Origin: a bacterium
Lineage (GTDB): Bacteria; SZUA-79; Acidulodesulfobacterales; Acidulodesulfobacteraceae
Assembly (NCBI GenBank): GCA_021813525.1
Contig: JAKAKK010000079.1
Location: forward strand, 1 to 63,693
Direction: 5' to 3'
Length of the DNA: 63,693 nt
Part shown: positions 17,894 to 33,522 of the stretch, piece after piece
How positions within the stretch are numbered: the stretch's first letter is position 1
How the letters are laid out: every line of letters begins with the position of its first letter
The notes under the pieces: generated by a model
Told to the model about the DNA's origin: nothing
What the model saw: only the letters and a program-made list of their open reading frames with translations
Databases searched by the model: none
Made by a program: the position numbers and the translations under genes

Positions 17894-18946
17894 ATGAAAA
17901 AAATCAACGGTAGATTTTACGCCGTTTTAGCGGTATTCTTTACAGTATTATCATTATCGTTAAGCGGATGCGCAAAAAAGCAGGGCGTTACGGGAGAAAC
18001 TAAATCAAAGCTGAGCGTCGGCGCATTTAAAACTCAATACAGCATTATTCCGGATTATCTTAAATCTCCGGGAAATACGGATTCATTAAATAATACAGCC
18101 ATATCCGCCCATATTATGGGATACGTAGTTTCGGAAAACGCCCATCAGGGTCAGGCAGTTTACAGAGGGCAGCTTTTATTAAAATTAAGCGCCCCCGAAA
18201 TAGGCTCAAAATATTATGCCGCGAAAGCCGGATTTATTAACGCAAAAAAAACATACGACAGGATTAAGAGATTATATAAAGAAAATTCTGTGTCGAGACA
18301 GATGTACGACAATACCTTAATGCAGTATAAAGTGGCTAAAGCCGACTTGAACGAAGCCGGGAACTATTTGGATTACAAAAATATTTATTCTCCTATCGAC
18401 GGGGTCATAACTAAAAAAAACGTTTCCATGGGCGACCTTGTCGCGCCCGGACAGATGCTGTTAATAATTCAAAGCCTTAAGAAATTGGAATTTAAGACAT
18501 CCGTAAACGTCAAATATTTTAGCAAAATAAAAAACGCCGAAGCCGTTAAATTGAATTTTTCGTCTATAAATAAATCTGTCGAAGGAAAAGTAATATCCGT
18601 AGTAAGGTCTGCCAATCCTTATTCCCATTCCGTCTTAGTTAGAATTGCCATAAAAGGCGCCGAAAAATCCGGGCTGATGCCGGGAATGTACGGAACGGCA
18701 AGATTTAAAATAGGAAAAAGGAAAGCTATAACCGTTCCGAAATCCGCCGTCGTAAGGAGACTCGGCATTACCGGAGTTTATACCGTTAACGGCGCCGGCG
18801 AAGTCGTGTTTCAGCCGGTAAAAAGGGGCAGGACGTATAAAAATAATTTTATCGTAATCATAAACGGATTAAATCCCGGAATGATTATAGTAACAACCGA
18901 TTTAGACAAAATAAGCGCAGGAAGCTATGTGAACCCGAAGTTATAA
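17894..18946 (+). CDS. RND efflux periplasmic adaptor lipoprotein
   Basis: Membrane-fusion protein of a tripartite efflux pump. The signal peptide ends in a lipobox (LSLSGC), predicting lipid anchoring at the cysteine near residue 26. Biotinyl-lipoyl-like halves flank a coiled-coil hairpin: AHIMGYVVSENAHQGQAVYR ... LLKLSAPEI, then the hairpin SKYYAAKAGFINAKKTYDRI, then IYSPIDGVITKKNVSMGDLV. Barrel and membrane-proximal domains follow. Length 350 is normal. It is 26 bases upstream of the pump gene; an outer-membrane TolC-type partner is not in the window. Confidence 0.92.
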   Translation: MKKINGRFYAVLAVFFTVLSLSLSGCAKKQGVTGETKSKLSVGAFKTQYSIIPDYLKSPGNTDSLNNTAISAHIMGYVVSENAHQGQAVYRGQLLLKLSAPEIGSKYYAAKAGFINAKKTYDRIKRLYKENSVSRQMYDNTLMQYKVAKADLNEAGNYLDYKNIYSPIDGVITKKNVSMGDLVAPGQMLLIIQSLKKLEFKTSVNVKYFSKIKNAEAVKLNFSSINKSVEGKVISVVRSANPYSHSVLVRIAIKGAEKSGLMPGMYGTARFKIGKRKAITVPKSAVVRRLGITGVYTVNGAGEVVFQPVKRGRTYKNNFIVIINGLNPGMIIVTTDLDKISAGSYVNPKL

Positions 18947-18972
18947 TACAAGATAAGGAGTTTTTTAGATAA

Positions 18973-21900
18973 ATGAATAAAAATTTCAGCGCTAAAATTA
19001 CCGAATATTTTATAGAAAACAAGATAACGCTTTTATTAATCCTTTTTAGCATAGGTTTCGGAATAATAGCGGTTCTTCTTACCCCTAGGCAGTATAATCC
19101 GCAGATTATAGTTCCGGCGGCAAACGTAATAGTCAGATTTCCCGGAGCGAGCGGCGAGCAGGTTAAAAACTTAGTAACAAAGCCGTTAGAAAGAAAAATG
19201 TGGCAGATTCCGGGAGTTAAGCACGTTTACTCGATATCGATGAACTCAGAATCCATAGTTACCGTAGAGTTTCATGTCAACGCAAGCCGCAATAAAAGCT
19301 TAGTAGATATATATAATAAAGTATTTTCAAACCTCGACGAAATTCCTAAGGGCGCAATGAGGCCGCTCATTAAGCCCATAGACGTAAACCACGTGCCTAT
19401 TTTAAATATCACGCTATGGAGCAAAAAATATAACGCGGGTTATCTTACGACTATTGCAGGCAGGATATTAGACAGGCTCGATTCCGTTAAGGGAACCGGG
19501 GTAACTTTTTTAAACGGCGCAAGATACAAACAACTCAACGTTTATCTGAATCCCTTGAAAATGGCTGGTTATAACGTTTCTCCGTTAATGATAGCGCAGG
19601 AGCTTAAAGGAACCAATATAAACATTCCGGCAGGTTTTCTTCAGAAAAACAATAAAAAAATGTTTCTGACGGCAGGCGGATATTTTCACCATGTAAGTTC
19701 GGTCGAGAACTTTATAATATCCGTTTATAACGGAAAACCCGTTTATCTTAAGGATGTAGCAAAGATTAAATATTCGTATAAGCCGTTAAATTTTTTATCG
19801 GAAATAGGATTCGGAAATAACTACAGAAAAATTAATGCAAACGACAGGGTTATTAAAGATTCCAAGGGTATTTACCCTGCCGTAACCATAGCCGTCGCAA
19901 AAAGAAGAGGGAAGAACGCGGTTGAGGTTGTGAACAGCGTTCTCGCGAAATTTCATAAAATTGCCGAAACAAGCCTTCCCGCCGGCGTTCACTATACAAT
20001 AACCAGAAATGACGGAAAAAAAGCAAACAATGCCGTAAATAAATTGCTGTTTCATCTTATAATAAGCATAGTTATAGTAATAGTACTTCTTTTAATAATA
20101 TTAGGCTGGAGGGAAGCTTTCATAGTTGCTTTTACAATTCCGCTGATGCTGTTTCTCACCCTCGGGATAGCTTATATTTTCCATCAAACTTTAAACAGGA
20201 TTACCCTGTTCGCATTAATTCTTTCCCTTGGGCTTTTAGTCGATAACGCCATAGTAGTCATCGATAACATAGAAAGGGTTTTTTCAAAAGAAAGAAACAT
20301 ACTTCCCGCTTATGCGGTGGATGCCGTAAACGAAATAGGCAATCCTAATTTTTTTGCTACTCTTGCGGTTATATCGTCCTTTATTCCAATGCTATTCGTA
20401 ACGGGAATGATGGGCCCTTATATGAGGCCTATCCCTTTTAACGTTCCAATAGCAATGCTCGTTTCTTTATTTGTAGCCCTCACAGTAGTTCCGTGGTTTT
20501 ACCTTAAACTTATGGCAAACGAAAGAGGAATGGCGCTGATTCGCAAAAAAGAATTAAAAGAGCACGGCAAAGACGGCAAAAAAGGCCTGTATTCTAAAAT
20601 ATTAATGCCCCTGCTTTTAAATAAGAAGAAAAGATATATATTTATGTCGGTCGTAGTAATTTTATTTATTTTAGCTATGTCTCTTCCGGTTTTAAAAATA
20701 GTAAAATTTAAAATGCTTCCCGTCGCAAATACCAACACTTTTTTGATTACTGTAAACAAACGCCCCGGTTCTACTTTTCAGGATACCAATATCGCCACTA
20801 TGCAGATAGTGAATTATTTGAAGCGAATAAAGCAGGTAAAAAACTACGTGGTTACGGTAGGAACACCCTCAGTTATCGATTTTTCCGGACTTTTGAGGGG
20901 GGCTAATTTTAGAAATGCAAGCTGGTTCTCGGAAATAAGGGTTAACCTCATAGACAAAGACAAAAGAAACACGTCTTCACATCAGCTTGTTTTAAACATT
21001 CTTCCCGACGTGCATAAAATCGGAAAAGAATATAATGCTACGGTAAAGGTTTTGGAAAGCCCGCCCGGACCTCCGGTAAAATCGACTATAGTAGCGGAAA
21101 TTTACGGTAAAAATTACAACGAGCAGGAAAAACTTTCAAAAATAGTAGAAGCGAAGATGAAAACAACGAGGGGGGTTACCGACGTAAATTCCTCATATAA
21201 GCGCCGGATAAGAAAGGCGGCGGTCATCGTTAGAAGAAGAAAGGCGGCGATGCTGGGAATAAGCACCGAAATGATTGCTCAGTCGCTTTATCTTTTAAAC
21301 AACGGAATGAGCGTGGGAACTATTCATAAAAAAGGACACCTTCATCAGGAAGATATTTTTTTAAGGATGCCCGGTTCATTCAGAACGGGGGTAAGCGGCT
21401 TATCGGGCATATGGATATATGCGCCTTCGGCCGGCAGGTTAATACCCTTAAATTCGGTGATAAAAATAAAGCGGGGCTATTTGCATAATATGATTTACGA
21501 AAGAGATTTAAAGCCGTTAGTTTATGTTTACGGCAAAGTTGTAAAAAGAAGCCCTATGTATGCAAATTTAGATCTTTTTCTGCATTTCTTAAAGCATCCT
21601 CTTCCTGCGGGATATCATATAAGGTGGGGCGGAGAGTGGAATCTTACGCTTAAGGTATTCGCACAGCTCGGCGCGGCAATGGGAATAGCAATCCTTCTTA
21701 TCTATATACTCTTGGTAGGCTATACCGGTTCTTTTATTATCCCTTTAATACTTATGGGGGCGATTCCTCTTGAAATGATAGGCATAATGCCGGGGTTCGC
21801 CTTGATAAGGGTTTATTTTACCGCCACTTCAATGATAGGGGCGATTGCATTGTCAGGCATAGTTATAAGAAATTCTTTACTTTTACTGGAATTTATTAAC

Positions 21901-22164
21901 GACAAAAAAAAAGAAGGCAATAATATAATAGATTCGCTGGTAGAAGCCGGGGCTATGAGGGCAAGACCAATTATAATAACGGCTCTTGCCGTTATATTCG
22001 GTTCGGCGATACTCGTAACCGACCCTGTATGGAACGGTCTGGCATGGGCGCTCATTTTCGGCATGTTAGCCTCTACTACCTTAACGCTCGTCGTAATTCC
22101 CGTGCTATATTATATGGTAGAAGGAAGAAGATGGCATAAAGAAGACGTTCACGATAATTTATAA
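18973..22164 (+). CDS. RND-family efflux transporter (AcrB-like)
   Basis: A 1063-residue pump with the expected two-fold repeat of six-helix bundles and large periplasmic loops: an N-terminal helix at ~14-34, TM cluster at ~360-520, second loop, then TM cluster at ~890-1045. TM4 carries the proton-relay pair in LSLGLLVDNAIVVIDNIERV (DN...DN). The second half has the matching region IGAIALSGIVIRNSLLLLEF. Substrates may be metals or small molecules; the sequence does not say. It is preceded by its adaptor and followed 24 bases later by a crotonase gene that may share the transcript. Confidence 0.92.
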   Translation: MNKNFSAKITEYFIENKITLLLILFSIGFGIIAVLLTPRQYNPQIIVPAANVIVRFPGASGEQVKNLVTKPLERKMWQIPGVKHVYSISMNSESIVTVEFHVNASRNKSLVDIYNKVFSNLDEIPKGAMRPLIKPIDVNHVPILNITLWSKKYNAGYLTTIAGRILDRLDSVKGTGVTFLNGARYKQLNVYLNPLKMAGYNVSPLMIAQELKGTNINIPAGFLQKNNKKMFLTAGGYFHHVSSVENFIISVYNGKPVYLKDVAKIKYSYKPLNFLSEIGFGNNYRKINANDRVIKDSKGIYPAVTIAVAKRRGKNAVEVVNSVLAKFHKIAETSLPAGVHYTITRNDGKKANNAVNKLLFHLIISIVIVIVLLLIILGWREAFIVAFTIPLMLFLTLGIAYIFHQTLNRITLFALILSLGLLVDNAIVVIDNIERVFSKERNILPAYAVDAVNEIGNPNFFATLAVISSFIPMLFVTGMMGPYMRPIPFNVPIAMLVSLFVALTVVPWFYLKLMANERGMALIRKKELKEHGKDGKKGLYSKILMPLLLNKKKRYIFMSVVVILFILAMSLPVLKIVKFKMLPVANTNTFLITVNKRPGSTFQDTNIATMQIVNYLKRIKQVKNYVVTVGTPSVIDFSGLLRGANFRNASWFSEIRVNLIDKDKRNTSSHQLVLNILPDVHKIGKEYNATVKVLESPPGPPVKSTIVAEIYGKNYNEQEKLSKIVEAKMKTTRGVTDVNSSYKRRIRKAAVIVRRRKAAMLGISTEMIAQSLYLLNNGMSVGTIHKKGHLHQEDIFLRMPGSFRTGVSGLSGIWIYAPSAGRLIPLNSVIKIKRGYLHNMIYERDLKPLVYVYGKVVKRSPMYANLDLFLHFLKHPLPAGYHIRWGGEWNLTLKVFAQLGAAMGIAILLIYILLVGYTGSFIIPLILMGAIPLEMIGIMPGFALIRVYFTATSMIGAIALSGIVIRNSLLLLEFINDKKKEGNNIIDSLVEAGAMRARPIIITALAVIFGSAILVTDPVWNGLAWALIFGMLASTTLTLVVIPVLYYMVEGRRWHKEDVHDNL

Positions 22165-22989: not shown

Positions 22990-23026
22990 TTGACAACAAT
23001 TTTAGAATATTCTATATTTAGAATAT
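22990..23026 (+). promoter_or_regulatory. Promoter with overlapping operator for the ArsR regulator
   Basis: A textbook sigma70-type promoter: TTGACA (22990-22995), 17-base spacer, TATATT (23013-23018). An inverted repeat ATATTCTA-N4-TAGAATAT (23007-23026) straddles the -10, and TTTAGAATAT occurs twice as a direct repeat (23001-23010 and 23017-23026). This is the size, composition and position of an ArsR/SmtB operator, so autorepression is likely. Confidence 0.7.
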
Positions 23027-23041
23027 ACACATAATCGCGGT

Positions 23042-23458
23042 GTGCTACATCGCAAAGAATTAAAAAAAATGGGAAAAATGGGAAAAGAGTTTTGCACGGA
23101 CGACAAAAACCTCAACAGAAAATGCAAAGATTTGGCAAGCATCTTTAAACTTTTGTCAAATCCTATCAGATTAGGAATTTTATGTATCGTTTGCGATGAA
23201 GAAGTCAGCGTAAACGATATATCCTCCGCCTTGGGTAAAACCCAATCCAACATATCCCAGCATTTAGCCGTCTTAAGGAACACTCAGATGGTAGATTACA
23301 AGAGAGTCGATAATAAACTCTTGTATTATCTGAAAAATTCCAAAATAAGACAGCTCGTCAAAGACATTAAGGAAATCAAAGATGCGGGAGATTATACCGA
23401 CTTGAGATTTTCAGGCGATGCCGCCTTAAAATCCGGCAGTAATCCCGATATCCGTTAA
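23042..23458 (+). CDS. ArsR/SmtB-family regulator of the sHdr locus
   Basis: A winged-helix regulator with LASIFKLLSNPIRLGILCIV (dimer and first helices), the recognition region VNDISSALGKTQSNISQHLAVLRN, and a short beta wing VDYKRVDNKLLYYL. Four cysteines are present: C18, C28 and a CxxC pair C48/C51 in GILCIVCDE. In related sHdrR proteins from sulfur oxidisers, cysteines sense sulfane sulfur by forming (poly)sulfide bridges; here that is inferred. The GTG at 23042 gives 138 residues; ATGs at 23069 or 23078 remain possible, without losing the helix-turn-helix. Operator-like repeats overlap its promoter. Confidence 0.88.
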   Translation: MLHRKELKKMGKMGKEFCTDDKNLNRKCKDLASIFKLLSNPIRLGILCIVCDEEVSVNDISSALGKTQSNISQHLAVLRNTQMVDYKRVDNKLLYYLKNSKIRQLVKDIKEIKDAGDYTDLRFSGDAALKSGSNPDIR

Positions 23459-23471
23459 TTATTATCCGTAT

Positions 23472-23498
23472 TTTTAATTTTTATTATTAAAATTTTTT
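23472..23498 (+). terminator. Weak AT-only hairpin with T-run after the regulator
   Basis: A 7-bp stem TTTTAAT / ATTAAAA with a 7-base loop (23472-23492) is followed by six T. It lies just after the regulator stop and may separate it from the hdr genes. All stem pairs are A-T, so termination would be inefficient at best. Confidence 0.35.
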
Positions 23499-23628
23499 AA
23501 CGTTCCTGCGCTTAGGATAAATGCGCCCGAATGCTTGGAAGTTTTCGGCATCTTTACGATAAATTTGCATGAATATCATAAAGATATTTATAGATAATCA
23601 TAAAATATCAAAAGGAGGATATTTTAAA

Positions 23629-24363
23629 ATGAGCGAAGAAAACAAGAATCCCGTTACGGAAAAAATCGAAAGCGCTAAGGGCGGACATTTTTATAAGGAA
23701 ATTATGAAAGATTTCCGAATTAAAGAATCCCTCCACGGCTGTTTAAACTGCGGAACTTGCGTGGCAAACTGCCCCGCCGCCGCATTTTACGATTACTCCC
23801 CCCGCGAAGTCTGCCAGATGATAATAGAAGGAGACGAGGAGACTATCGAAGAGTATATGAAGGGCAAGATTTGGAACTGTGCACAGTGTTACAGCTGTAA
23901 ATACAGATGCCCTAAAGAGAATTCGGCTGCGGATATAGTTATGGCTATGAGAGAGATTGCGGTCAGGGAAGGTCTCGCCGCCGAAGCGCTTGCAGGTTAT
24001 ACCAGAATTGCGAAATTGGTTTTAACCAGAGGCAACCAGCTTGCGCCGGATATGCTTTCTCCCGACGCTTTTCCGGACTGGGGTCCGAGGATGATAGAGC
24101 TTTCGTCTAAAAAAATGGAAATGAGGGAAGAGCTTTTTGAAGGTTTTCCCGGCATGAATGTGGTAGATAGGGCATGGGCGGCAGAAGATTACACTATATA
24201 TGAAATGCAAAAAATATGGGAAGAAAGCGGCGCCTTAGAAAAGGTGGGGACAGTGTTTCCGTTTCTAGTCGATATAGTTCAGGATGATATGGAAGATAAA
24301 AAAGACGAAATGGAAGCAAAAATTCAGGAAAAAAAAGAAAAACTAGAGGCGTCTAAAAAGTAA
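23629..24363 (+). CDS. shdrC1: sHdrC1, [4Fe-4S] electron-transfer subunit
   Basis: Iron-sulfur subunit of the sulfur-oxidising heterodisulfide-reductase-like complex. Two CxxCxxCxxxCP clusters are complete: C38, C41, C44, C48 and C84, C87, C90, C94. The N-terminal HdrC fold continues into a C-terminal extension (about residues 115-244) ending in a charged helix KKDEMEAKIQEKKEKLEASKK-like tail, characteristic of the HdrC1 type. The start is taken at 23629 because AAAGGAGG lies 10 bases upstream; a further ATG at 23569 would add 20 residues before that site. First of the shdrC1-B1-A-C2-B2 run. Confidence 0.9.
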   Translation: MSEENKNPVTEKIESAKGGHFYKEIMKDFRIKESLHGCLNCGTCVANCPAAAFYDYSPREVCQMIIEGDEETIEEYMKGKIWNCAQCYSCKYRCPKENSAADIVMAMREIAVREGLAAEALAGYTRIAKLVLTRGNQLAPDMLSPDAFPDWGPRMIELSSKKMEMREELFEGFPGMNVVDRAWAAEDYTIYEMQKIWEESGALEKVGTVFPFLVDIVQDDMEDKKDEMEAKIQEKKEKLEASKK

Positions 24364-24406
24364 AGCCTAAAAAGTAAAAAAATACTATAAATTTTTGGAG
24401 GACATT

Positions 24407-25498
24407 ATGTCTTATGAGATAAACGACGTTAAAACCGGCATAAATCATGCTAAGGGCATGAATTATCATGCTCACGACATCAGGGCAGAAATGAAAAAAT
24501 TAGAAGAAGAAGGTGAGATTAAGATCGGCCGTATTATAGGCCCGTATAAAGAAGAAGAGGTTATGTACGGGATAAAAAAGAAAGTGCCTCTAGACATGCA
24601 CTATCAGCATAAAAGCTGCGGCCAGTGCGCAAACCTTCCAGGCGTTCCGAGGTCTAATTTTTATTACAGGGATAAACTAGGGATAAAGTATTACAACGAT
24701 ATGCAGCAGACTTCATGTACGGCATGGAATTATCATGCATCCGGTCTCGGAAATCTCGTTCAGCTCGCTTCGGTTGCGGCAAGGAACTGGCACAGGGCAT
24801 ATGAAGAAGGCTATAATTTTACTATACACTGCGTTACCAGTTTCGGAAACTATTTGGAAATGAGGCATTTGTTGGTGGGAAATAAAGAGCTAAGGGATTC
24901 CGTAAAAAAAGTTCTTGCAAAATTAGGAAGAGAACTTGTTATTCCAGAAGAAATAGTCCACGACAGCGAGATAGCATATGCTTTAAGGGATAAAATACTG
25001 GCGGCGGCAGACCCGAAAAGGCTTGAAGGGATTAAAGGATTGAGGGCGGTAGAACATTACGGATGCCATTTCTTTAAACAGGTATCCGACGACATAATCG
25101 GCGGAAAAAGACCCATCGTCGTAGGCGGATTGGCATCGCACCTCGGCGTGCAGATGGAGGAATATTCCAAATGGTTTATGTGCTGCGGATTCGGATTCAG
25201 GCATATTTTAGTCAACAGGGAATTTACCAGGTCTGCCCAAAATATTAAATTAAAAGCGATAAAACAGGAAGTGGATCCCGATATGATACTGGTTAACTGC
25301 ACAGGCTGCGGAACGACTTTCGACAAGACGCAATGGATACAGAAAGCCGTCGGAGAAGATTACCATTATCCCGTCGTGTTTTATTCCCAGCTAGCCGCTC
25401 TCGCTTTAGGGGCGCATCCTTTTAAGGAAGCCGGATTAAACTTTCACGTCACGCCGGTGGAACCGCTTTTGGATAAGATGGGAATAGCCTACAACTAA
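24407..25498 (+). CDS. shdrB1: sHdrB1, catalytic CCG-domain subunit
   Basis: HdrB-type subunit expected to hold a noncubane [4Fe-4S] cluster. The second CCG domain is canonical: YGCHFF, WFMCCGFGFRH and NCTGCGTTFD. The first is degenerate, with cysteines C71, C74 and C104 (SCGQCANL and TSCTAWNYH). The start is the ATG at 24407, preceded by TTGGAGG; a TTG four codons upstream overlaps that site. Length 363 is that of the sHdrB1 group rather than the ~300 of methanogen HdrB. It pairs with HdrC1 upstream. The complex oxidises sulfane sulfur to sulfite by family knowledge; direction in this organism is inferred. Confidence 0.9.
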   Translation: MSYEINDVKTGINHAKGMNYHAHDIRAEMKKLEEEGEIKIGRIIGPYKEEEVMYGIKKKVPLDMHYQHKSCGQCANLPGVPRSNFYYRDKLGIKYYNDMQQTSCTAWNYHASGLGNLVQLASVAARNWHRAYEEGYNFTIHCVTSFGNYLEMRHLLVGNKELRDSVKKVLAKLGRELVIPEEIVHDSEIAYALRDKILAAADPKRLEGIKGLRAVEHYGCHFFKQVSDDIIGGKRPIVVGGLASHLGVQMEEYSKWFMCCGFGFRHILVNREFTRSAQNIKLKAIKQEVDPDMILVNCTGCGTTFDKTQWIQKAVGEDYHYPVVFYSQLAALALGAHPFKEAGLNFHVTPVEPLLDKMGIAYN

Positions 25499-25528
25499 AT
25501 GAAAATAAATGAAAATAAATGAAAATAT
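25499..25528 (+). repeat. Three tandem copies of a 10-bp unit
   Basis: Directly after the shdrB1 stop codon the unit ATGAAAATAA occurs three times (the last ends ATGAAAATAT). Each unit contains an ATG not preceded by a ribosome site. It lies in the 74-base gap before shdrA and looks like a slippage-prone tract. Confidence 0.75.
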
Positions 25529-25572
25529 AAAATTATAAGAAAATTATAAAAAGTAAAAAGGAGGTATTTAAG

Positions 25573-26622
25573 GTGAAAACAGTTTTAGTTATCGGAGGAG
25601 GAGTTACCGGACTTAAGGCCGCATCGGAACTTGCAGGTATGGGTTATAACGTTTCCTTGGTGGAAAAAGAAGATTACTTAGGGGGGCAGGTAGCTAAGCA
25701 CAAGTATTACAAACTTGCGCCGGATTTAAGGCTTGCGGGCGACGTGCTCGACCCGGTCATTAAAGCCGTAGAGAGCAATCCTAATATTAAAGTCCAGAAA
25801 CATTCGCAGATTATCGCGGTTTCAGGAGGCGCTCCCGAATTTAAAGCAAAAATTAAAAATTCTAAAGGAGAAAGCGAAGAAACTTTCGGAGCCATAGTGG
25901 TAGCAACCGGATTCGGCCATTTCGACCCTACGGTTAAGCAGGAATACGGCTACGGAAGGTTTAAAGACGTAGTCACCAATGCAGAAGTCGAAGAGATGCT
26001 TAATCCTAACGGACCCACTAAAGGCGAATTGAAAAGGCCTTCGGACGGAAACATTCCGAAAAAAATCGCAATATTTCAGTGCGTCGGCTCCAGAGACAGG
26101 CAGGTCGGAAATCCTTACTGCTGCAGGGTAGGATGCGTCGTTTCTACGAAGCAGGCGATAGAAATAAAAGAAAAATATCCTGATTCCGAAGTTTACGTAT
26201 ATTATATGGATATGAGAATGTTCGGAAGAGGATGGGAAGAGCTTTACGGTAAAGCAATGGAAGATTATGAAGTCATATTCACGAGAGGAAGAGGCGCCGA
26301 GGTAACGCTTAAAAATCAACAGCTCTCTTTAAGGGCGGAAGAGACTATTATGGACAGGCCGATACAGCATTCCGTAGATATGATTATTCTTGCCGCAGGA
26401 ATGTCCGCCGGAGAAGGAACCATAGATGCCGCGAAAGTTCTCGGAATTAAACAGAACGATTACGGCTTCCTGTCCCCCAAAGACGATTTTCTCAGCCCAA
26501 ACGAGTCTTCAAAACCAGGCATATTTATAGCGGGAGCGGATAAAGGCCCTATGGACATAGAAAACTGTATCGTGGAAGGCGCAGCTGTCGCCGCAAAGGT
26601 AGCAGGCAGTTTAAAAAATTAA
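25573..26622 (+). CDS. shdrA: sHdrA, FAD-binding subunit
   Basis: The flavoprotein of the sHdr complex, short form (349 residues) lacking the ferredoxin modules of methanogen HdrA. FAD site VLVIGGGVTGLKAASELA (residues 4-20), second dinucleotide signature AIVVATGFGHFDP (107-119) and cysteine region IFQCVGSRDRQVGNPYCCRV with C170, C183, C184 and C188, matching the cluster-binding motif of HdrA. The C-terminal GIFIAGADKGPMDIENCIVEG is typical. GTG start with AAAGGAGG upstream. Probably handles electrons between the HdrBC pairs and an acceptor such as NAD+ via LbpA. Confidence 0.92.
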   Translation: MKTVLVIGGGVTGLKAASELAGMGYNVSLVEKEDYLGGQVAKHKYYKLAPDLRLAGDVLDPVIKAVESNPNIKVQKHSQIIAVSGGAPEFKAKIKNSKGESEETFGAIVVATGFGHFDPTVKQEYGYGRFKDVVTNAEVEEMLNPNGPTKGELKRPSDGNIPKKIAIFQCVGSRDRQVGNPYCCRVGCVVSTKQAIEIKEKYPDSEVYVYYMDMRMFGRGWEELYGKAMEDYEVIFTRGRGAEVTLKNQQLSLRAEETIMDRPIQHSVDMIILAAGMSAGEGTIDAAKVLGIKQNDYGFLSPKDDFLSPNESSKPGIFIAGADKGPMDIENCIVEGAAVAAKVAGSLKN

Positions 26623-26697
26623 ATATCTTAATTAATTATTATTAGTTATATTGTTAATTATATTAAGATTTATATATTTATATATAAGGAGAAAGCA

Positions 26698-27342
26698 ATG
26701 GCTGAAAATACCGATAAAATGGTTATAGACGGCGTAGAACTTACCGGCATTTGGAAAGAGTTTCTGCCTTCGAGAATATTATATGAGGACGTTACGACGG
26801 AATTTCTCGACGAGGTTAAAAAACTGCCGGGCGGTTCTACCATAGTAAGATGTTATCAATGCGGAACATGTTCCGGCGGATGCACCCTTCCCGATTTCGT
26901 TGATAAATTTAACCCTAGAAGATTTATCGACTTGGTCAGAAGAGGGCATTACGACATATTGGTAAACGAAAATAAAGATTTAGTCTGGAAATGCGTATCG
27001 TGCCAGAGATGCACCCACAGATGCCCCAGAGGCGTAAACACGCAGGAAGTAGTCAGGGCGATAGCCAAATTTTTAGAAGACAGAAAAGTTTTCGGAAAGC
27101 TTACAAACGATGAAGCTTTCGACGAAATTTTTATGGAAGAAGTTATCGAAGACGGAAGGATAGACGAAGTTAAAATAGTCAAGGATTTTTATTCTAAAAC
27201 CGGAAGGCTTAAGGAAATGATGAGCGCAGACCAGCTCTCGCTCGGTTTCAAGATGCTTACCAGCGGAAGGATAAAGCTGTTCGGCGGCAAAATTAAAGAC
27301 TGGAAGAAAGTTTCCCAGAGGTTAAAGGAGGAATTACAATGA
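26698..27342 (+). CDS. shdrC2: sHdrC2, [4Fe-4S] subunit
   Basis: Second HdrC-like subunit, 214 residues, with two full clusters: C52, C55, C58, C62 (CYQCGTCSGGC) and C99, C102, C105, C109 (CVSCQRCTHRCP). The pattern RRFIDLVRRGHYDILV between them is standard for HdrC. A good AAGGAGAAAG site precedes the ATG. It overlaps shdrB2 by 4 bases (ATGA type), so C2 and B2 are made as a pair. In the best-known sHdr clusters a small 'hyp' gene lies between A and C2; here only 75 AT-rich bases occur. Confidence 0.9.
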   Translation: MAENTDKMVIDGVELTGIWKEFLPSRILYEDVTTEFLDEVKKLPGGSTIVRCYQCGTCSGGCTLPDFVDKFNPRRFIDLVRRGHYDILVNENKDLVWKCVSCQRCTHRCPRGVNTQEVVRAIAKFLEDRKVFGKLTNDEAFDEIFMEEVIEDGRIDEVKIVKDFYSKTGRLKEMMSADQLSLGFKMLTSGRIKLFGGKIKDWKKVSQRLKEELQ

Positions 27343-28244
27343 AAATAGGATATTTCCCCGGCTGTTCTTTGAAAGGAATGGCTCGAGCTTACGACGAATC
27401 TACTAAAATAGTCGCTCAGGAGTTCGGGATAGATTTAATGGAAATAGAGGACTTTAACTGCTGCGGCGCCCTAGAAGTAAAAGGCTCCAACGAAAAGCTT
27501 TCCTATATGCTCCCGGCAAGGGTAATGGATTCGGCGAAGGGAAGGTTTCACGTCGATGCCGTGGTTACCCCGTGCAACGGATGCTACCACAGTCTGTTAA
27601 GGGCAAATTCGGCAATGAACGAAAATGCCGCCGCTAAAGGAGACGTTATAAGCTTCCTTAAAGACGTCGGCTACGGAACATACGAAGGCGATATGGACGT
27701 AAGGCATTTTCTGGAACTGTTTTATAACGAAATAGGTCCGGAAAAAGTAAAATCGGCTGTTAAGAAACCTCTTAAAGGGCTAAAAGTCGCTTCTTATTAC
27801 GGATGTTTATACGAAAGGCCGAAAACTATTACTATGACCGGTTATAAAAGCAAAAGAGACGATTCGGAAAATCCTTATTTTCAAGACGAACTGTTGAAAG
27901 CAACCGGCGCGGAAGTAGTCGAATTTCATGCCTCGGCTTCATGCTGTGGCGGAGCGCACGCCCTTCAGGACGAATCTTTAGCCGCAACTTTATCGGCGGC
28001 GGTTTTATCTTCCGCAAAAGAGGCGGGGGCGGATATGTTAGTGCTTCCGTGTCCTTTGTGCGGAGCGGCTTTAGATATAAAACAGCCTGAAATAATTAAA
28101 GCGCACGGAGAAAAGGCGAAACTTCCGGTAGTTTATTTTACCCAGCTTATAGGGCTGAGCATAGGGAAAAATCCTAAAGAGCTTAAATTATCCGACCCGA
28201 TTTCTAATCCAATGGAAGTTTTAAAATCGAAAGGACTCGCGTGA
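27339..28244 (+). CDS. shdrB2: sHdrB2, CCG-domain subunit
   Basis: HdrB-like protein of 301 residues with both CCG domains intact: YFPGCSL ... NCCGALE ... CNGCYHSL in the first half and YYGCLYERP ... SCCGGAHA ... CPLCGAALD in the second. These bind the unusual noncubane cluster where disulfide or persulfide chemistry occurs. Overlap with shdrC2 by 4 bases indicates a stoichiometric pair. Its stop is followed 26 bases later by a 43-base palindrome, so the transcript may end or weaken here. Confidence 0.92.
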   Translation: MKIGYFPGCSLKGMARAYDESTKIVAQEFGIDLMEIEDFNCCGALEVKGSNEKLSYMLPARVMDSAKGRFHVDAVVTPCNGCYHSLLRANSAMNENAAAKGDVISFLKDVGYGTYEGDMDVRHFLELFYNEIGPEKVKSAVKKPLKGLKVASYYGCLYERPKTITMTGYKSKRDDSENPYFQDELLKATGAEVVEFHASASCCGGAHALQDESLAATLSAAVLSSAKEAGADMLVLPCPLCGAALDIKQPEIIKAHGEKAKLPVVYFTQLIGLSIGKNPKELKLSDPISNPMEVLKSKGLA

Positions 28245-28269
28245 TAAAATAAAAAAGTAAAAAGGTGCC

Positions 28270-28312
28270 GGATAAAAAGGGGTCGGATTTTAAATCCGAC
28301 CCCTTTTTATCC
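28270..28312. terminator. Near-perfect 43-bp palindrome (terminator or REP-like element)
   Basis: Two 21-base arms are exact reverse complements around a single central T (28291); the core is GGGGTCGGATTTTAAATCCGA with C-rich end. On either strand the stem is flanked by A/T runs, so it can act as a bidirectional terminator between shdrB2 and lbpA1. The core resembles REP-type palindromes that disperse with Y1 transposases. Confidence 0.65.
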
Positions 28313-28355
28313 TCTTTTCATTAGAACGCCGCATTTCAAAATTTTTATGATATAC

Positions 28356-28384
28356 TTGAGAATAATAAAAAATTATAGTATCAT
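28356..28384 (+). promoter_or_regulatory. Promoter for the lbpA-lip segment
   Basis: TTGAGA (28356-28361), 17-base spacer, TATCAT (28379-28384). It lies behind the strong hairpin, and 36 bases ahead of the lbpA1 ATG with AAGGAGG in the leader. An imperfect inverted repeat TATGATA ... TATCATA (28346-28352 and 28379-28385) brackets it. Confidence 0.5.
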
Positions 28385-28420
28385 AAATAAAAAAATAATT
28401 AATTTAAGGAGGAATTTATC

Positions 28421-28861
28421 ATGTCGTCTAAGATTAACGGATGCGATATTCCGGAGGATTTATACTACAGCGTAGAAAAACACGTATGGGGAAAACTAGG
28501 GGATGACGGAACGGTAACGGTAGGAATGACGAGCGTAGCCCAAAGTTTAGCAGGCAAACTGCTATATCTGACCCCGAAAAAAGTCGGACAAAAAATCGCC
28601 CAGCTTAAATCTGTCGCAACGGTAGAAAGCGGCAAATACGTGGGTCCCGTTCCCGCTCCGTTTTCCGGCGAAATAACCGCAGTTAACGAAGACGCGGTAA
28701 AAGACGTATCGCTGATAAATTCCGACCCATACGGCAAAGGGTGGGTATGCAAAATTAAAGCAGACAATATAGAAGCCGATAAAAAAAATCTTCTTACCGG
28801 AAAAGAAGCCGTAGAGGCATACAAGAAAAAAATAGAAGCAGACGGAATTAAATGCGAATAG
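28421..28861 (+). CDS. lbpA1: Lipoate-binding protein LbpA, copy 1
   Basis: A 146-residue GcvH-like lipoyl carrier specialised for the sHdr pathway. The lipoylation motif is VESGKYVGP with the modified lysine K72; LbpA proteins have 'ESGKYVGP' where GcvH has 'ESVKA'. Fold markers: YSVEKHVWGKL, VGMTSVAQSLAG, PFSGEITAVN. It should shuttle sulfur or electrons between the Hdr-like complex and a reoxidising enzyme in the cytoplasm. It has its own promoter and strong ribosome site. Paralogue of the next gene, about half identical by eye. Confidence 0.93.
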   Translation: MSSKINGCDIPEDLYYSVEKHVWGKLGDDGTVTVGMTSVAQSLAGKLLYLTPKKVGQKIAQLKSVATVESGKYVGPVPAPFSGEITAVNEDAVKDVSLINSDPYGKGWVCKIKADNIEADKKNLLTGKEAVEAYKKKIEADGIKCE

Positions 28862-28915
28862 CTTATATAGATAATATAAATATTAAATATTAAAACAAAA
28901 ATAGGAAGATATTAA

Positions 28916-29362
28916 ATGCCGATTTTTAACGAATGCAATATTCCCGAAGACCTCTATTACGATATAGAAAATCAGGTTTGGGGCAGAAAAAATTCCGACG
29001 GCACTTTTACCTTCGGAATGACCGACCCCGCTCAGTCTTTAGCCGGCAAAATTCTTTACGCCGACGTTAAACCCGTGGGCAGAATAATTAAAAAAGGAAA
29101 GAGCGCCGCGACTATAGAAAGCGGAAAGTACGTAGGCCCTTTTCCGATGCCTTTTGCCGGAGAAGTCGTAGAAGTGAACAAAGAGCTGGAAAACGACTCC
29201 CATATTATTAATTTAGACCCTTACGGAAAAGGCTGGATAGTAAAATTAAAGCCTCTTCCCGAATCCATGTCCGACGTAAATTCTCTTCCTACGGGGGAGG
29301 ATGCCGTAAACGCTTATATAAAAAAGCTGGAAAAAGAAGATATAATCTGTAAAAAGAGATAA
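28916..29362 (+). CDS. lbpA2: Lipoate-binding protein LbpA, copy 2
   Basis: Second LbpA (148 residues) with lipoyl lysine K71 in IESGKYVGPFPMPFAGEVVE. It shares the N-terminal CNIPEDLYYDIENQVWG framework with copy 1 but differs in surface loops (KKGKSAATIES). Having two carriers in tandem suggests either dosage or separate partners, for example one per HdrBC pair. Weak AGGAAG ribosome site. It is followed 7 bases later by lipS1, so carriers and assembly enzymes are cotranscribed. Confidence 0.92.
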   Translation: MPIFNECNIPEDLYYDIENQVWGRKNSDGTFTFGMTDPAQSLAGKILYADVKPVGRIIKKGKSAATIESGKYVGPFPMPFAGEVVEVNKELENDSHIINLDPYGKGWIVKLKPLPESMSDVNSLPTGEDAVNAYIKKLEKEDIICKKR

Positions 29363-29369
29363 GAAAAAT

Positions 29370-30371
29370 ATGAGTTTTTATGAATACAACGAAGATATAG
29401 ACGAAGATTATGCAAAAGGGTTCGATATAAGAAAAAACTATTTTAATTCCGAAATAAATTTTTACGCCCCTAGTATTAAGTCTTACGAAACCGAAGACTT
29501 TAAAAACGGTAAATCCGATTCTTTCCCCCCCTTTTCCATCACAGGCGGTTCATGTTCCTTAAAATGCGAACACTGCAACGCCGAAATTTTAAAATCTATG
29601 GCTCCGGCGCTAACGCCGGACGAACTTTTTGAACGGGCTAAAACTATATACGAATCAGGAGGCATGGGATTTTTGCTTAGCGGGGGGTCAAACAGCAAGG
29701 GCATAGTCGATATTTTGCCGTATATAAAAACTATAAAAAAAATAAAATCCGATTTAAACCTTAAAGTAATAGTCCACTGCGGGCTCATAACAGAAGAGAT
29801 AGCCGACGGACTTTTAGAAGCAGGGGTCGATTCGGCAATGCTCGACATAATAGGCGAAGAAGATACTATACGCAAAATATACCACTTGAACGCCACGGTT
29901 AAAGATTACGAAAATTCCCTGAAATATCTATCGGACAGAAAAATACCGTGTTCTCCGCACGTAGTAATAGGTTTAAAACACGGACGCATAGCAGGAGAAT
30001 TTAACGCTATCGACATTATTTCAAACTATGATATTTCTTCCTTGGTATTAGTGGGGTTTATGCCGATGCATAATACTAAAATGGAAAATGTTATTCCTCC
30101 GACAGCGGAAGAAATAGGGGAAGTATTTTTATACGCCCGTAAAAAATTTACTGAAACGCCCGTTCTTTTAGGGTGCGAAAGACCTTACGGACTAAGCAAG
30201 TTCAAAATAGAAGAGCTTGCGGTAAAATCAGGATTAAACGGCATCGCCTATCCATCGGAGGGAATTATTCCTTTCAGCGTAAAGCTCGGATTAAAGCCTA
30301 AATTTTCGGAATTATGCTGTTCGTTAATTTTTTCTGAAGCGGCTTTGCCCGTCATAGAAATGAGCCGTTAA
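29370..30371 (+). CDS. lipS1: Radical-SAM lipoate assembly protein LipS1
   Basis: A 333-residue radical SAM enzyme with the cluster motif CSLKCEHC (Cx3Cx2C) near residue 65 and a glycine-rich SAM region GGMGFLLSGGSNSKG. Context identifies it as LipS1: directly behind two LbpA genes and followed by a lipoate ligase and a second radical SAM gene. In the sLpl(AB)-LipS1/LipS2 pathway the two enzymes jointly insert the two sulfurs into octanoyl-LbpA. By sequence alone it could be any radical-SAM family member; operon content makes the call firm. Confidence 0.86.
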   Translation: MSFYEYNEDIDEDYAKGFDIRKNYFNSEINFYAPSIKSYETEDFKNGKSDSFPPFSITGGSCSLKCEHCNAEILKSMAPALTPDELFERAKTIYESGGMGFLLSGGSNSKGIVDILPYIKTIKKIKSDLNLKVIVHCGLITEEIADGLLEAGVDSAMLDIIGEEDTIRKIYHLNATVKDYENSLKYLSDRKIPCSPHVVIGLKHGRIAGEFNAIDIISNYDISSLVLVGFMPMHNTKMENVIPPTAEEIGEVFLYARKKFTETPVLLGCERPYGLSKFKIEELAVKSGLNGIAYPSEGIIPFSVKLGLKPKFSELCCSLIFSEAALPVIEMSR

Positions 30372-30402
30372 ATGAATATGCAATGAATATGCAATGAATA
30401 TG
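30372..30402 (+). repeat. Tandem 11-bp repeat at the lipS1-ligase junction
   Basis: The unit ATGAATATGCA occurs twice and a third partial copy (ATGAATATG) forms the start of the ligase gene. Every unit carries two ATGs. It begins directly after the lipS1 stop and provides up to six candidate start codons in a row. Confidence 0.8.
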
Positions 30403-31935
30403 TTCAGGGTAATAGACACCGGTTTAAACGATTTTTCGTATAATATATGCATGGATAAATCCCTCCTAGAACTCAGGAAGGAGGGTTTAATAGAGAACAC
30501 TTTCCGTTTTTTAAGATTTAAGCCTTGCGTTCTGACCGGGTATCACCAGTCGGTATTCAGCGAGATAAGGCGGGATTACTGCGAAGAGCGCGGTATAAGC
30601 ATCGGCAGAAGGATTACCGGCGGAGGAGCGATATATTTCGACGAAGCCCAGCTTGGGTGGGAACTAGTATTTTCTTCTAAAAGCATTAAGATTAAAAGTC
30701 TTGAAAATTTAACTGAAAATATCTGTACCTCTTTCGCAAAAGGGATAAGCAAACTTGGAATTGATGCAAAGTTTAGGCCTAGAAACGATATAGAAGTTGA
30801 CGGCAGGAAGATTTCGGGAACAGGCGGCACTTATGAGTCTTCGGTTTATTTTTTTCAAGGAACCCTTCTTTTAGATTTTAATCCCGAAAATATGGTAAAA
30901 TCCCTGAAAATTCCGGTCGAAAAATTGACGTCCAAAAATTTTAGTTCGATTCTTTCAAGGGTAACGTCCCTTAAAAGCATTTTAGGCCGTATTCCCGATT
31001 TAAACCTGATTAAATCGGCCGTTATTTCAGGATTTCAAGAACACTTAGGTTTAGATTTTTTTTACGAATCGGAATTATCGCGGAAAGAAGAAGATTTTTT
31101 AAAAGAAAACCGCCGGTTTTACGGTTCAGAGGAGTGGATTTATTCCAACGAATTCGACCCCGTTAAAACTAAAATGATTTCCGAAATTTATAAATGCGGC
31201 GGAGGGCTTTTTAAGACCTATGCAAAGGTTGACGAAAAAAGAAATTTATTAAAATATATTTATTTTACGGGCGACTATTTTGTTTCTCCGGCAAGGGCTA
31301 TTAACGATTTAGAAAGCTGTCTGAAAGATACGCCTTTCGACGAGCTCATATTTAAAATAGACGATTATTTCGAAAAATTTAAACCGGAGTTTCAAAATAT
31401 CGGGAAAGAAGATTTTTTTAATATCGTTATGCAGATTATCAATAAAGTTAATTTTTCTAAAAACACCGGAATAAAAGAAGAAGATTTATCGAGATTTATT
31501 TTCGTAAACGGAATGAAGCCCGAGGATATTTCATCGGCAGAATATATTCTTCTGCCTTACTGCGCCAAAAAAATTGACTGCGAATACAGAAATAAAGACA
31601 AATGTATATCCTGCGGCGAATGCGAAACCGGAACCGCATATAAATTTGCCGAAAGATACGGAATTACGGCGAAGACGATTATCAATTATGAAAATTTAGT
31701 TGAAACTTTAGGCGAATTAACCGCAAAAGGAGTTAAAACTTATATAGGATTCTGCTGCAAAGAATTTTACATAAAAAGAAACGCCGCATTTAAAGAAAGC
31801 GGGATAAAAGCTCTTTTAATAGATATTTCATCGCCTTTATGCTATAAATACAAGAATGAAGAATCTGCTTACGAAGGCAGTTTTGAAGGGGAAACTTCGT
31901 TAGGAGTTAACGTTTTATTTAAAATGTTCGGATAA
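30394..31935 (+). CDS. slplAB: Lipoate/octanoate-protein ligase sLpl(AB) fused to a DUF116 domain
   Basis: Residues 1-~230 are a BPL/LplA/LipB-type ligase: RRITGGGAIYF (72-82) and the lipoyl-AMP lysine K139 in GRKISGTGG. About 235-375 resemble the accessory LplA C-terminal domain (GGLFKTYAKVDEKRNLLKY). Residues ~382-513 are a DUF116 domain with eight cysteines (C390, C396, C404, C407, C410, C454, C455, C483), likely metal or Fe-S binding. The ligase should attach octanoate or lipoate to LbpA. ATG at 30394 or 30400. The fused third domain is unusual for the pathway; its role is unknown. Confidence 0.86.
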   Translation: MNMFRVIDTGLNDFSYNICMDKSLLELRKEGLIENTFRFLRFKPCVLTGYHQSVFSEIRRDYCEERGISIGRRITGGGAIYFDEAQLGWELVFSSKSIKIKSLENLTENICTSFAKGISKLGIDAKFRPRNDIEVDGRKISGTGGTYESSVYFFQGTLLLDFNPENMVKSLKIPVEKLTSKNFSSILSRVTSLKSILGRIPDLNLIKSAVISGFQEHLGLDFFYESELSRKEEDFLKENRRFYGSEEWIYSNEFDPVKTKMISEIYKCGGGLFKTYAKVDEKRNLLKYIYFTGDYFVSPARAINDLESCLKDTPFDELIFKIDDYFEKFKPEFQNIGKEDFFNIVMQIINKVNFSKNTGIKEEDLSRFIFVNGMKPEDISSAEYILLPYCAKKIDCEYRNKDKCISCGECETGTAYKFAERYGITAKTIINYENLVETLGELTAKGVKTYIGFCCKEFYIKRNAAFKESGIKALLIDISSPLCYKYKNEESAYEGSFEGETSLGVNVLFKMFG

Positions 31936-31961
31936 AAATAAAACCGGAGGACATATATTAT

Positions 31962-33053
31962 ATGAACGGAACCGCGGCGTTAGAAGATTTAAATTTAAAT
32001 TATGAAAGTAAAAGAGATAATGTTTCCGGCAATTCTCCGGAATATTTAAAAGTAAGCCTTGCGGCGGCAATGACCATGGATTTCGTGCCCGGCATTTTTT
32101 ACCGCAATGCCTGCCTGCACTGTATAAACGTTCTTTTGACTTACGATGAAGGATGCAGGGCAAACTGCGCATATTGCGGACTTCAGAAATCTAGGGAAGG
32201 CGAATATAACGATAAAAGTTTTATAAGAGTAGATTGGCCTGTATTTAAAACGGACGATATTATCGCGGCTACGCTTAAGAAGAAAGATACGGCGGATAGG
32301 ATATGCATTTCGATGATTACTCACGAAAGGGCGAAAGACGATACCTTTGCCGTTTTAAAAAAATTCGCAAATGAACTGCATTGTCCCGTTTCTATACTGA
32401 TGACCCCTACTATATTAAAACATAACGATATAGAACGCTTTAAGGAATACGGCGCCGATATGGTAACCGTCGCCTTAGACGCAGCGACCCCGGAACTGTT
32501 TGACGAGTATAGGGGGAGAGGCGTAGGAGGTCCGCACAGATGGGAAAAATATAACGATATACTTGAATATTCCGTTGCCGTTTTCGGCAAAAATAAGGTC
32601 GGATGCCATCTAGTAGTCGGTCTGGGCGAAACGGAAAAAGAAATGATTTTCAGGATGCAGGATGTGAGGGATAAAGGAGCAAGGTCGCATCTTTTTTCTT
32701 TTTATCGGGAAAAAGGTTCGAGGCTTGAAAATCATCCTCAGTGTCCGGCGGGCCAATACAGGAGAATCCAGGTGGCAAGACATATAATAGACTACGACAT
32801 GGGCAGGGCTGAAGATATGAAATTCGACGGCGGCGGAAGAATAACCGATTTCGGAATACCGTTTAAAAACGTAGCGGAGATAATAGAAAGAGGCGCGGCT
32901 TTTCAGACCACCGGATGTCCGGGAAAAACCGAAATTTCTGCATGCAACAGGCCTTTCGGCGATTCTTCGCCGAAAAATATCAGGAGTTTTCCGTTCGAAC
33001 TTAATGCAGGCGACGTAAACAGGGTAAGAAAAGAGTTATTGGAATACGATTAG
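31962..33053 (+). CDS. lipS2: Radical-SAM lipoate assembly protein LipS2
   Basis: Radical SAM enzyme of 363 residues with the cluster motif in YDEGCRANCAYCGLQ (Cx3Cx2C) near residue 55, SAM region ICISMITHERAKDD, and further cysteines (CLHC before the cluster, CPAG, CPGK, C in SACNRPFG) that could hold an auxiliary cluster. The C-terminus is of the BATS/biotin-synthase-like type. Placed after the ligase, it fits LipS2, the partner of LipS1. It has a good CCGGAGG site. 11 bases separate it from the OsmC-like gene. Confidence 0.86.
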   Translation: MNGTAALEDLNLNYESKRDNVSGNSPEYLKVSLAAAMTMDFVPGIFYRNACLHCINVLLTYDEGCRANCAYCGLQKSREGEYNDKSFIRVDWPVFKTDDIIAATLKKKDTADRICISMITHERAKDDTFAVLKKFANELHCPVSILMTPTILKHNDIERFKEYGADMVTVALDAATPELFDEYRGRGVGGPHRWEKYNDILEYSVAVFGKNKVGCHLVVGLGETEKEMIFRMQDVRDKGARSHLFSFYREKGSRLENHPQCPAGQYRRIQVARHIIDYDMGRAEDMKFDGGGRITDFGIPFKNVAEIIERGAAFQTTGCPGKTEISACNRPFGDSSPKNIRSFPFELNAGDVNRVRKELLEYD

Positions 33054-33063
33054 GAGAGCAAGA

Positions 33064-33522
33064 ATGTCCGAAGCCGAATTAGTCAAGGTAAAAGTAAAAC
33101 ATCTAAATAATTTGCAGAATCAGATTATTACCGAAAAACATACGCTTATAACGGACGAACCCGAAGCTTCAGGAGGGGACGAACTTGCCGTTAATCCGAT
33201 AGAACTTGTTCTCGGAGCCGAAGGCGCATGCACCGTGTCCGTTCTAATGATGTTCGCCAAAAGAATGAAGTACGACCTGAAGAGCGTAGAAATAAGTTTA
33301 ACCCACAAGAGGATTAGAGTTGAAGAAATAAAGGCCGCAGGAGCAGAACCGGATAACGAAAGAGGCTACGTCCATAAAATAGAAAAAAATATAAAATTTA
33401 TCGGAAATCTAGACGAAGACCAGCTCGAAGAACTGCAGAGAGTTTCTCAGAGATGCCCCGTTCATAATATGATAGAAAAAAGGTCCTATTTCGAAATATC
33501 GTTCGACCATGCGGACGATTAA
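33064..33522 (+). CDS. OsmC/YhfA-like thiol protein
   Basis: A 152-residue OsmC-fold protein. The two redox cysteines are C56 (GAEGACTVSVLMMFAKRM) and C131 (SQRCPVHNMIEKR), in the positions used by OsmC peroxidases; family members reduce organic peroxides, others act on persulfides. It starts 11 bases after lipS2 and is transcribed with it, so it is probably tied to sulfur handling. It is not part of the standard sHdr gene set as I know it. Confidence 0.85.
   Translation: MSEAELVKVKVKHLNNLQNQIITEKHTLITDEPEASGGDELAVNPIELVLGAEGACTVSVLMMFAKRMKYDLKSVEISLTHKRIRVEEIKAAGAEPDNERGYVHKIEKNIKFIGNLDEDQLEELQRVSQRCPVHNMIEKRSYFEISFDHADD

Follow-up and report, generated by a model that had tools for sequence, protein, structure and literature searches.

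We analyzed a 63,693-nucleotide stretch of DNA (the window; contig JAKAKK010000079.1 of assembly GCA_021813525.1) from an acid-mine bacterium of the order Ca. Acidulodesulfobacterales (PMC6776010), whose 1.45-Mb genome is 86% complete, and describe its locus for the sHdr complex, the LbpA carriers and their lipoate assembly enzymes. The window probably encodes a third sHdr lineage that lacks sHdrH, has an intact HdrB-type CCG site in the subunit sHdrB1 and most likely oxidizes sulfane sulfur. In the broad sense the locus is sHdr: C1, B1, A, C2 and B2 are akin to sHdr rather than to HdrABC, and they are accompanied by LbpA. Type I sHdr, known from Hyphomicrobium denitrificans, Acidithiobacillus and Sulfobacillus cluster I, is defined by the core genes shdrC1B1AHC2B2 in one syntenic cluster (PMC11582611). 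The window matches it in the identity and order of five Hdr subunits and in having LbpA, the sLpl(AB)-LipS1/S2 enzymes and a single-domain sHdrA, but it has no sHdrH, carries Cys for Asp in the B1 CCG motif, forms a separate deep branch and keeps its lipoate genes in a unit of their own. Type II (shdrC1B1AHB3 and etfAB in one cluster, Sulfobacillus cluster II) has the C1-B1-A core and LbpA in common with the window, which differs in its separate C2 and B2 genes and in lacking H, the B3 fusion and EtfAB. The window locus is a variant of the sHdr-LbpA system that neither published definition covers. Our searches of the openly readable literature brought up no account of an sHdr without H, an sHdr in Ca. 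Acidulodesulfobacterales or the ligase-DUF116 fusion described below.

The evidence for a distinct lineage lies in sHdrB1, in the gap between the A and C2 genes and in the trees. We read the best 80 of 518 B1 relatives, represented type II by two Sulfobacillus-related genomes (loci L185 and L186) and sought relatives outside the family in 85,000 species genomes. Residue 298, the first cysteine of the CxxC in the CCG motif, is Cys in all 18 sequences of the window lineage and Asp in all 84 of type I; Asp also occupies this position in both type II loci, which are arranged C1-B1-A-H-C2/B fusion-EtfB-EtfA-like-LbpA-LbpA. The preliminary description had noted all expected iron-sulfur cysteines, and these are present, but sHdrB1 carries one more than its type I and type II counterparts. 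C298 aligns with a catalytic-motif cysteine of the methanogen HdrB (5ODC), onto which the B1 model fits with a TM-score of 0.84 by target (pLDDT 80 overall, low at residues 1-21 and 263-273). The two proteins share the fold and the five-cysteine C-terminal CCG motif, whereas the N-terminal CCG motif of the window B1 is degenerate and its partners are LbpA and sHdrA instead of Mvh/Fdh. A "CCRVGC" motif in sHdrA was discarded as a lineage marker because 21 of 74 type I sHdrA sequences carry it too.

As measured by the A-C2 gap, sHdrH is absent from its usual place in the window: the gap spans 56-81 nt in 17 cassette loci (about 80 nt in the window), and none of 71 further loci has a gap shorter than 678 nt. 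For the window B1, identity is 94-98% within the family and 44-48% to type I and type II B1. In the B1 tree, the window pairs with L098, a locus from outside the family, at 98/98, and the pair falls outside types I and II at 89/88; the A+C2+B2 tree likewise places the window and L098 outside both types (85/96). The trees thus give moderate support to a branch outside types I and II. The sHdr-LbpA-LipS identity proposed in the preliminary description holds: the lipoyl lysine context is intact, and B1 and A-C2-B2 group with sHdr, apart from the conventional HdrABC of the same genome. Tentatively, the lineage might be a third sHdr type, sister to types I and II, with an ancestral HdrB-like five-cysteine B1 site, independence from sHdrH and a different or reversible chemistry, which would give some Ca. 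Acidulodesulfobacterales two non-equivalent LbpA-dependent complexes beside Dsr.

L098, which belongs to the Bacillota metagenome-assembled genome (MAG) LSA3.bin48, was the sole non-family relative among the matches listed. Its locus encodes DsrE, a Sulf_transp (YeeE-type) protein, TusA and DsrE, followed by C1-B1-A-C2-B2, two LbpAs, two ligases, LipS2 and LipS1, and a LipT homologue lies about 7 kb from B1 on the same contig. No sHdrH was found anywhere in the LSA3.bin48 genome. A second shdr locus of this MAG (L139/L187, one locus read twice) is type I-like, with Asp in B1 and an A-C2 gap that has no sHdrH and falls in the 56-81 nt range of the cassette loci.

The preliminary description had taken the sHdr set of the window as complete. 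However, sHdrH is missing, and the host genome has two sHdr copies: the divergent one in the window and a standard type I locus, C1-B1-A-H-C2-B2, which has the full defining gene set and lies on contig C63 (L011:9558-15766). A B1 scan of named genomes found both loci in Ca. Acididesulfobacter diazotrophicus AP1 (SGBB01), which matches the family genome G021 and so places the window in Ca. Acidulodesulfobacterales. A gene for a rubrerythrin-like protein comes after the C63 locus, which a rubrerythrin/VIT1-like fusion also flanks; this arrangement is conserved through the family. A third LbpA gene lies beside a gene for a thioredoxin-like protein on contig C70 (L012:6274-7042); because the same pair trails type I loci in Bacillota, this LbpA is suggested to be the cognate type I carrier.

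The preliminary description had seen no TusA gene near the locus, and indeed none is present on the window contig. It had expected the sulfur donor and LipT to come from elsewhere, and a search across the genome supplied candidates for both: tusA, dsrE, dsrAB and a LipT-like gene were found, whereas a search of 16 congeneric genomes (the host and 15 others) yielded no EtfA. A DsrE-TusA-TusA-SQR(type III)-DUF1641 cassette on contig C92 (L019:5531-8849) is a candidate supply line from sulfide to sulfane sulfur. The LipT-like flavoprotein on contig C66 (L190:3998-5053) matches at 34% over its full length and shares the PVQCAEF motif; its gene is single-copy in most family genomes searched and stands apart from the lipoate genes. 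Contig C23 carries dsrA-B-D-L-C-M-K-E-F, with an intact dsrA open reading frame (ORF) whose apparent internal stop proved to be the terminal codon, and contig C14 carries both aprA and the LipA gene. We set aside the TusA genes on contigs C31 and C55, whose neighbours are IscU/IscS-like and ThiS/ThiF-like genes and whose role looks biosynthetic, and a "TusA" match on contig C26 was dropped for want of a clear ORF.

The locus had been described as a single 10-kb run with its own lipoate genes. The ArsR gene, shdrC1-B1-A-C2-B2, two LbpA genes, two radical-SAM genes around a ligase gene and the OsmC gene are all intact and co-directional over 23,042-33,522, and Pfam and NCBIfam profiles back every named family. 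Nevertheless, by its predicted signals the locus is two transcription units, ArsR-shdrC1-B1-A-C2-B2 (the cassette) and lbpA-lbpA-lipS1-sLpl-lipS2-osmC, parted by a terminator and a second promoter (Table 1). The promoter consensus scan was overall no richer than in shuffled sequence, and the call of the ArsR promoter rests on its position and quality; a palindrome within its spacer, TAGAATATTCTA, is a candidate ArsR operator. An element much like the second promoter precedes lbpA in most relatives read, with or without the cassette. In seven genomes (G002, G005, G006, G011, G013, G014 and G018), no Hdr genes separate the lbpA-lip operon from the upstream gene. The lipoate operon is thus retained where the cassette is gone, which makes the cassette an accessory to a lipoate locus that is itself conserved. 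Two further genomes (G017 and G020) carry a lone ArsR gene directly upstream of lbpA without Hdr genes, pointing to loss of the cassette. Between the window and genus g2, nonsynonymous divergence (dN) was 0.04 for B1 and 0.27 for the ligase, and synonymous divergence (dS) was saturated in nearly every gene. Judged from these comparisons, the cassette has long been part of the family, is under strong purifying selection and has been lost several times. Recent horizontal insertion within the family was rejected because synonymous sites are saturated alike in the cassette and lip genes and because the lone ArsR of G017 and G020 points to loss. Plasmid carriage was also rejected, as plasmid matches comprised only type I-like Acidithiobacillus at 46% and one partial cyanobacterial match.

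The regulator differs from sHdrR, which has two conserved cysteines (Cys50 and Cys116): the window ArsR and those of all family members have only the first, and the second cysteine of sHdrR and SoxR is missing. Many shdr-linked ArsR proteins are devoid of the two cysteines (PMC12423496).

The second unit resembles the sLpl(AB)-LipS1/LipS2 pathway (PMC10332631) in pairing a ligase with two radical SAM lipoyl synthases beside lbpA; it differs in that the ligase carries a C-terminal DUF116 and lipT lies outside the cluster. The LipS1 and LipS2 equivalogs of NCBIfam were by far the best matches, with CxxxCxxC motifs present and both scores under the cut-offs. Both LbpAs are GcvH-like, with the lipoyl lysine intact in an ESGK(Y/W)VG context, as the preliminary description had it, and are distinct from the true GcvH gene, which accompanies that of an LplA/LipM-like protein on contig C46. 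The ligase part models as LplA. DUF116 is reached by 22 of the 80 ligase ORFs compared, namely 21 of the window family (some genomes counted twice) and the second ligase of L098 (L098:16028-17578); the other 58 do not have it, one of them being a truncated family copy. Among the ligases examined, the fusion is thus confined to the family and L098. Eight DUF116 cysteines are conserved in the window lineage and may point to a metal or Fe-S role. Upstream of the locus, a gene pair for an RND efflux system (HlyD-type and AcrB-type; window 17894-22164) is syntenic across the family.

Table 1. Features of the sHdr-LbpA locus in the window.
Feature	Position	Strand	Evidence
Candidate promoter of cassette, TTGACA-17-TATATT	22990..23018	+	11/12 consensus matches, top site of region
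ArsR-family repressor, HTH_5	23042..23458	+	ORF, Pfam; RLGILC cysteine kept
sHdrC1, two 4Fe-4S motifs, ribosome-binding site AAAGGAGG	23629..24363	+	ORF, Pfam (Fer4), cysteine alignment
sHdrB1, five-cysteine C-terminal CCG motif (C220, C259, C260, C298, C301)	24407..25498	+	Pfam, alignment, model
sHdrA, single-domain flavoprotein, 349 aa	25573..26622	+	NCBIfam; end-to-end match to Hyphomicrobium sHdrA structure 6TJR
A-C2 intergenic gap, place of sHdrH in type I/type II loci	26623..26697	+	Gap measurement
sHdrC2	26698..27342	+	Pfam, NCBIfam, cysteine alignment
sHdrB2, two CCG domains	27339..28244	+	Pfam, NCBIfam, alignment, tree
Strong predicted terminator ending cassette, 20-pair stem and T tail	28270..28312	+	Hairpin after sHdrB2
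Candidate promoter of lbpA-lip operon, TTGAGA-17-TATCAT	28356..28384	+	Consensus scan, conservation in relatives
LbpA 1, ESGKYVGP	28421..28861	+	Pfam (GCV_H, 123 bits), motif
LbpA 2, ESGKYVGP	28916..29362	+	Pfam (GCV_H, 123 bits), motif
LipS1, radical SAM lipoyl synthase, CSLKCEHC	29370..30371	+	NF053742, 227 bits vs cut-off 230
sLpl(AB) lipoate:protein ligase (LplA-B_cat) fused to cysteine-rich DUF116	30394..31935	+	Pfam, NCBIfam, model
LipS2, radical SAM lipoyl synthase, CRANCAYC	31962..33053	+	NF053743, 216 bits vs cut-off 270
OsmC-like protein	33064..33522	+	NCBIfam

Overall, we propose a putative mechanism for the window complex. In the characterized system, sulfane sulfur is passed to lipoyl-LbpA and then oxidized by sHdr (PMC6067878, PMC10332631), and by analogy the window complex would oxidize sulfane sulfur to sulfite. 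We infer its substrate and direction, NAD+ as its acceptor and a split of labour between the two sHdr copies. DsrE/TusA carriers would load lipoyl-LbpA, from which the sHdr complex would take the sulfane sulfur and oxidize it toward sulfite at its iron-sulfur sites, with electrons passing via the FAD of sHdrA to NAD+. ArsR would render the cassette inducible, while the LbpA/lipoate operon would be transcribed independently and would also serve the type I sHdr on the other contig. Sulfite would exit via AprA toward sulfate or feed DsrAB. The DsrE-YeeE-TusA-DsrE genes beside the L098 cassette support sulfane-sulfur oxidation and, together with the C92 cassette of the host, favour the oxidative direction.

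Several points weigh against this proposal. Function in this lineage is a prediction from sequence; the root of the trees has moderate support and the outgroup branches are long; and L098 represents a single MAG of unknown completeness, whose H-less type I locus indicates that H loss and C298 retention are not strictly coupled. ArsR lacks the two-cysteine sensor, so sulfane sulfur is at most a candidate inducer. Moreover, the chemistry may differ because Cys stands where types I and II always have Asp, and a Dsr set of the reductive type, dsrD included, occurs in the host as well, which keeps the direction from being deduced from the genome. The last two points leave room for a reductive or disproportionating role. 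With electrons from NADH that pass through sHdrA, the HdrB-like sites might reduce a persulfide or lipoyl disulfide carried by LbpA, alone or in a disproportionation/comproportionation loop that feeds or balances Dsr, while the type I copy oxidizes. With C298, the window B1 regains the full CCG set of five cysteines found in methanogen HdrB, which is a disulfide reductase, and dsrABDL and a separate type I sHdr share the genome, so an oxidative complex is already there. We nevertheless regard this role as unlikely, because the L098 cassette is paired with TusA-DsrE-YeeE sulfur delivery, typical of oxidation, and because B1 is otherwise sHdrB1-like and B2 is sHdrB2-like.

It is less likely still that the cassette is an ordinary type I sHdr that lost sHdrH and drifted, with the sHdrH of the type I locus acting in trans. 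In favour of this reading, sHdrH is present at the type I locus of all family genomes that bear the cassette and give a full B1 match, and LSA3.bin48 provides an example of H loss from a type I locus. However, types I and II share 54-72% identity with the type I B1 of this genome, well above their identity to the window B1; residue 298 is always Cys within the lineage and always Asp elsewhere; B1 and A-C2-B2 branch outside type I; and LSA3.bin48 has no detectable H that could act in this way. That a conventional HdrABC or Flox-type electron-bifurcating complex was misread as sHdr is very improbable. The subunits match methanogen Hdr models, but far under the curated cut-offs; the window HdrA is a 349-aa single-domain protein, whereas the true HdrCBA of the genome, with a 660-aa HdrA, is encoded separately on contig C16 and falls outside; and LbpA and LipS1/S2 adjoin the cassette. 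We therefore retain a third, probably oxidative sHdr lineage as our reading.

A group described as sulfate reducers thus holds two sHdr-LbpA systems. In the 2019 metatranscriptome of Tan et al., hdrB2, hdrC2, gcvH, sqr and sirA were among the most expressed genes and were filed under methane/glyoxylate metabolism. These transcripts may instead reflect sulfur oxidation by one or other of the shdr copies. The window lineage, apparently an outgroup to the two sHdr types known so far, differs naturally from them in having Cys rather than Asp in the proposed catalytic subunit and in doing without sHdrH, and the role of the Asp and the role of sHdrH thereby become testable questions.

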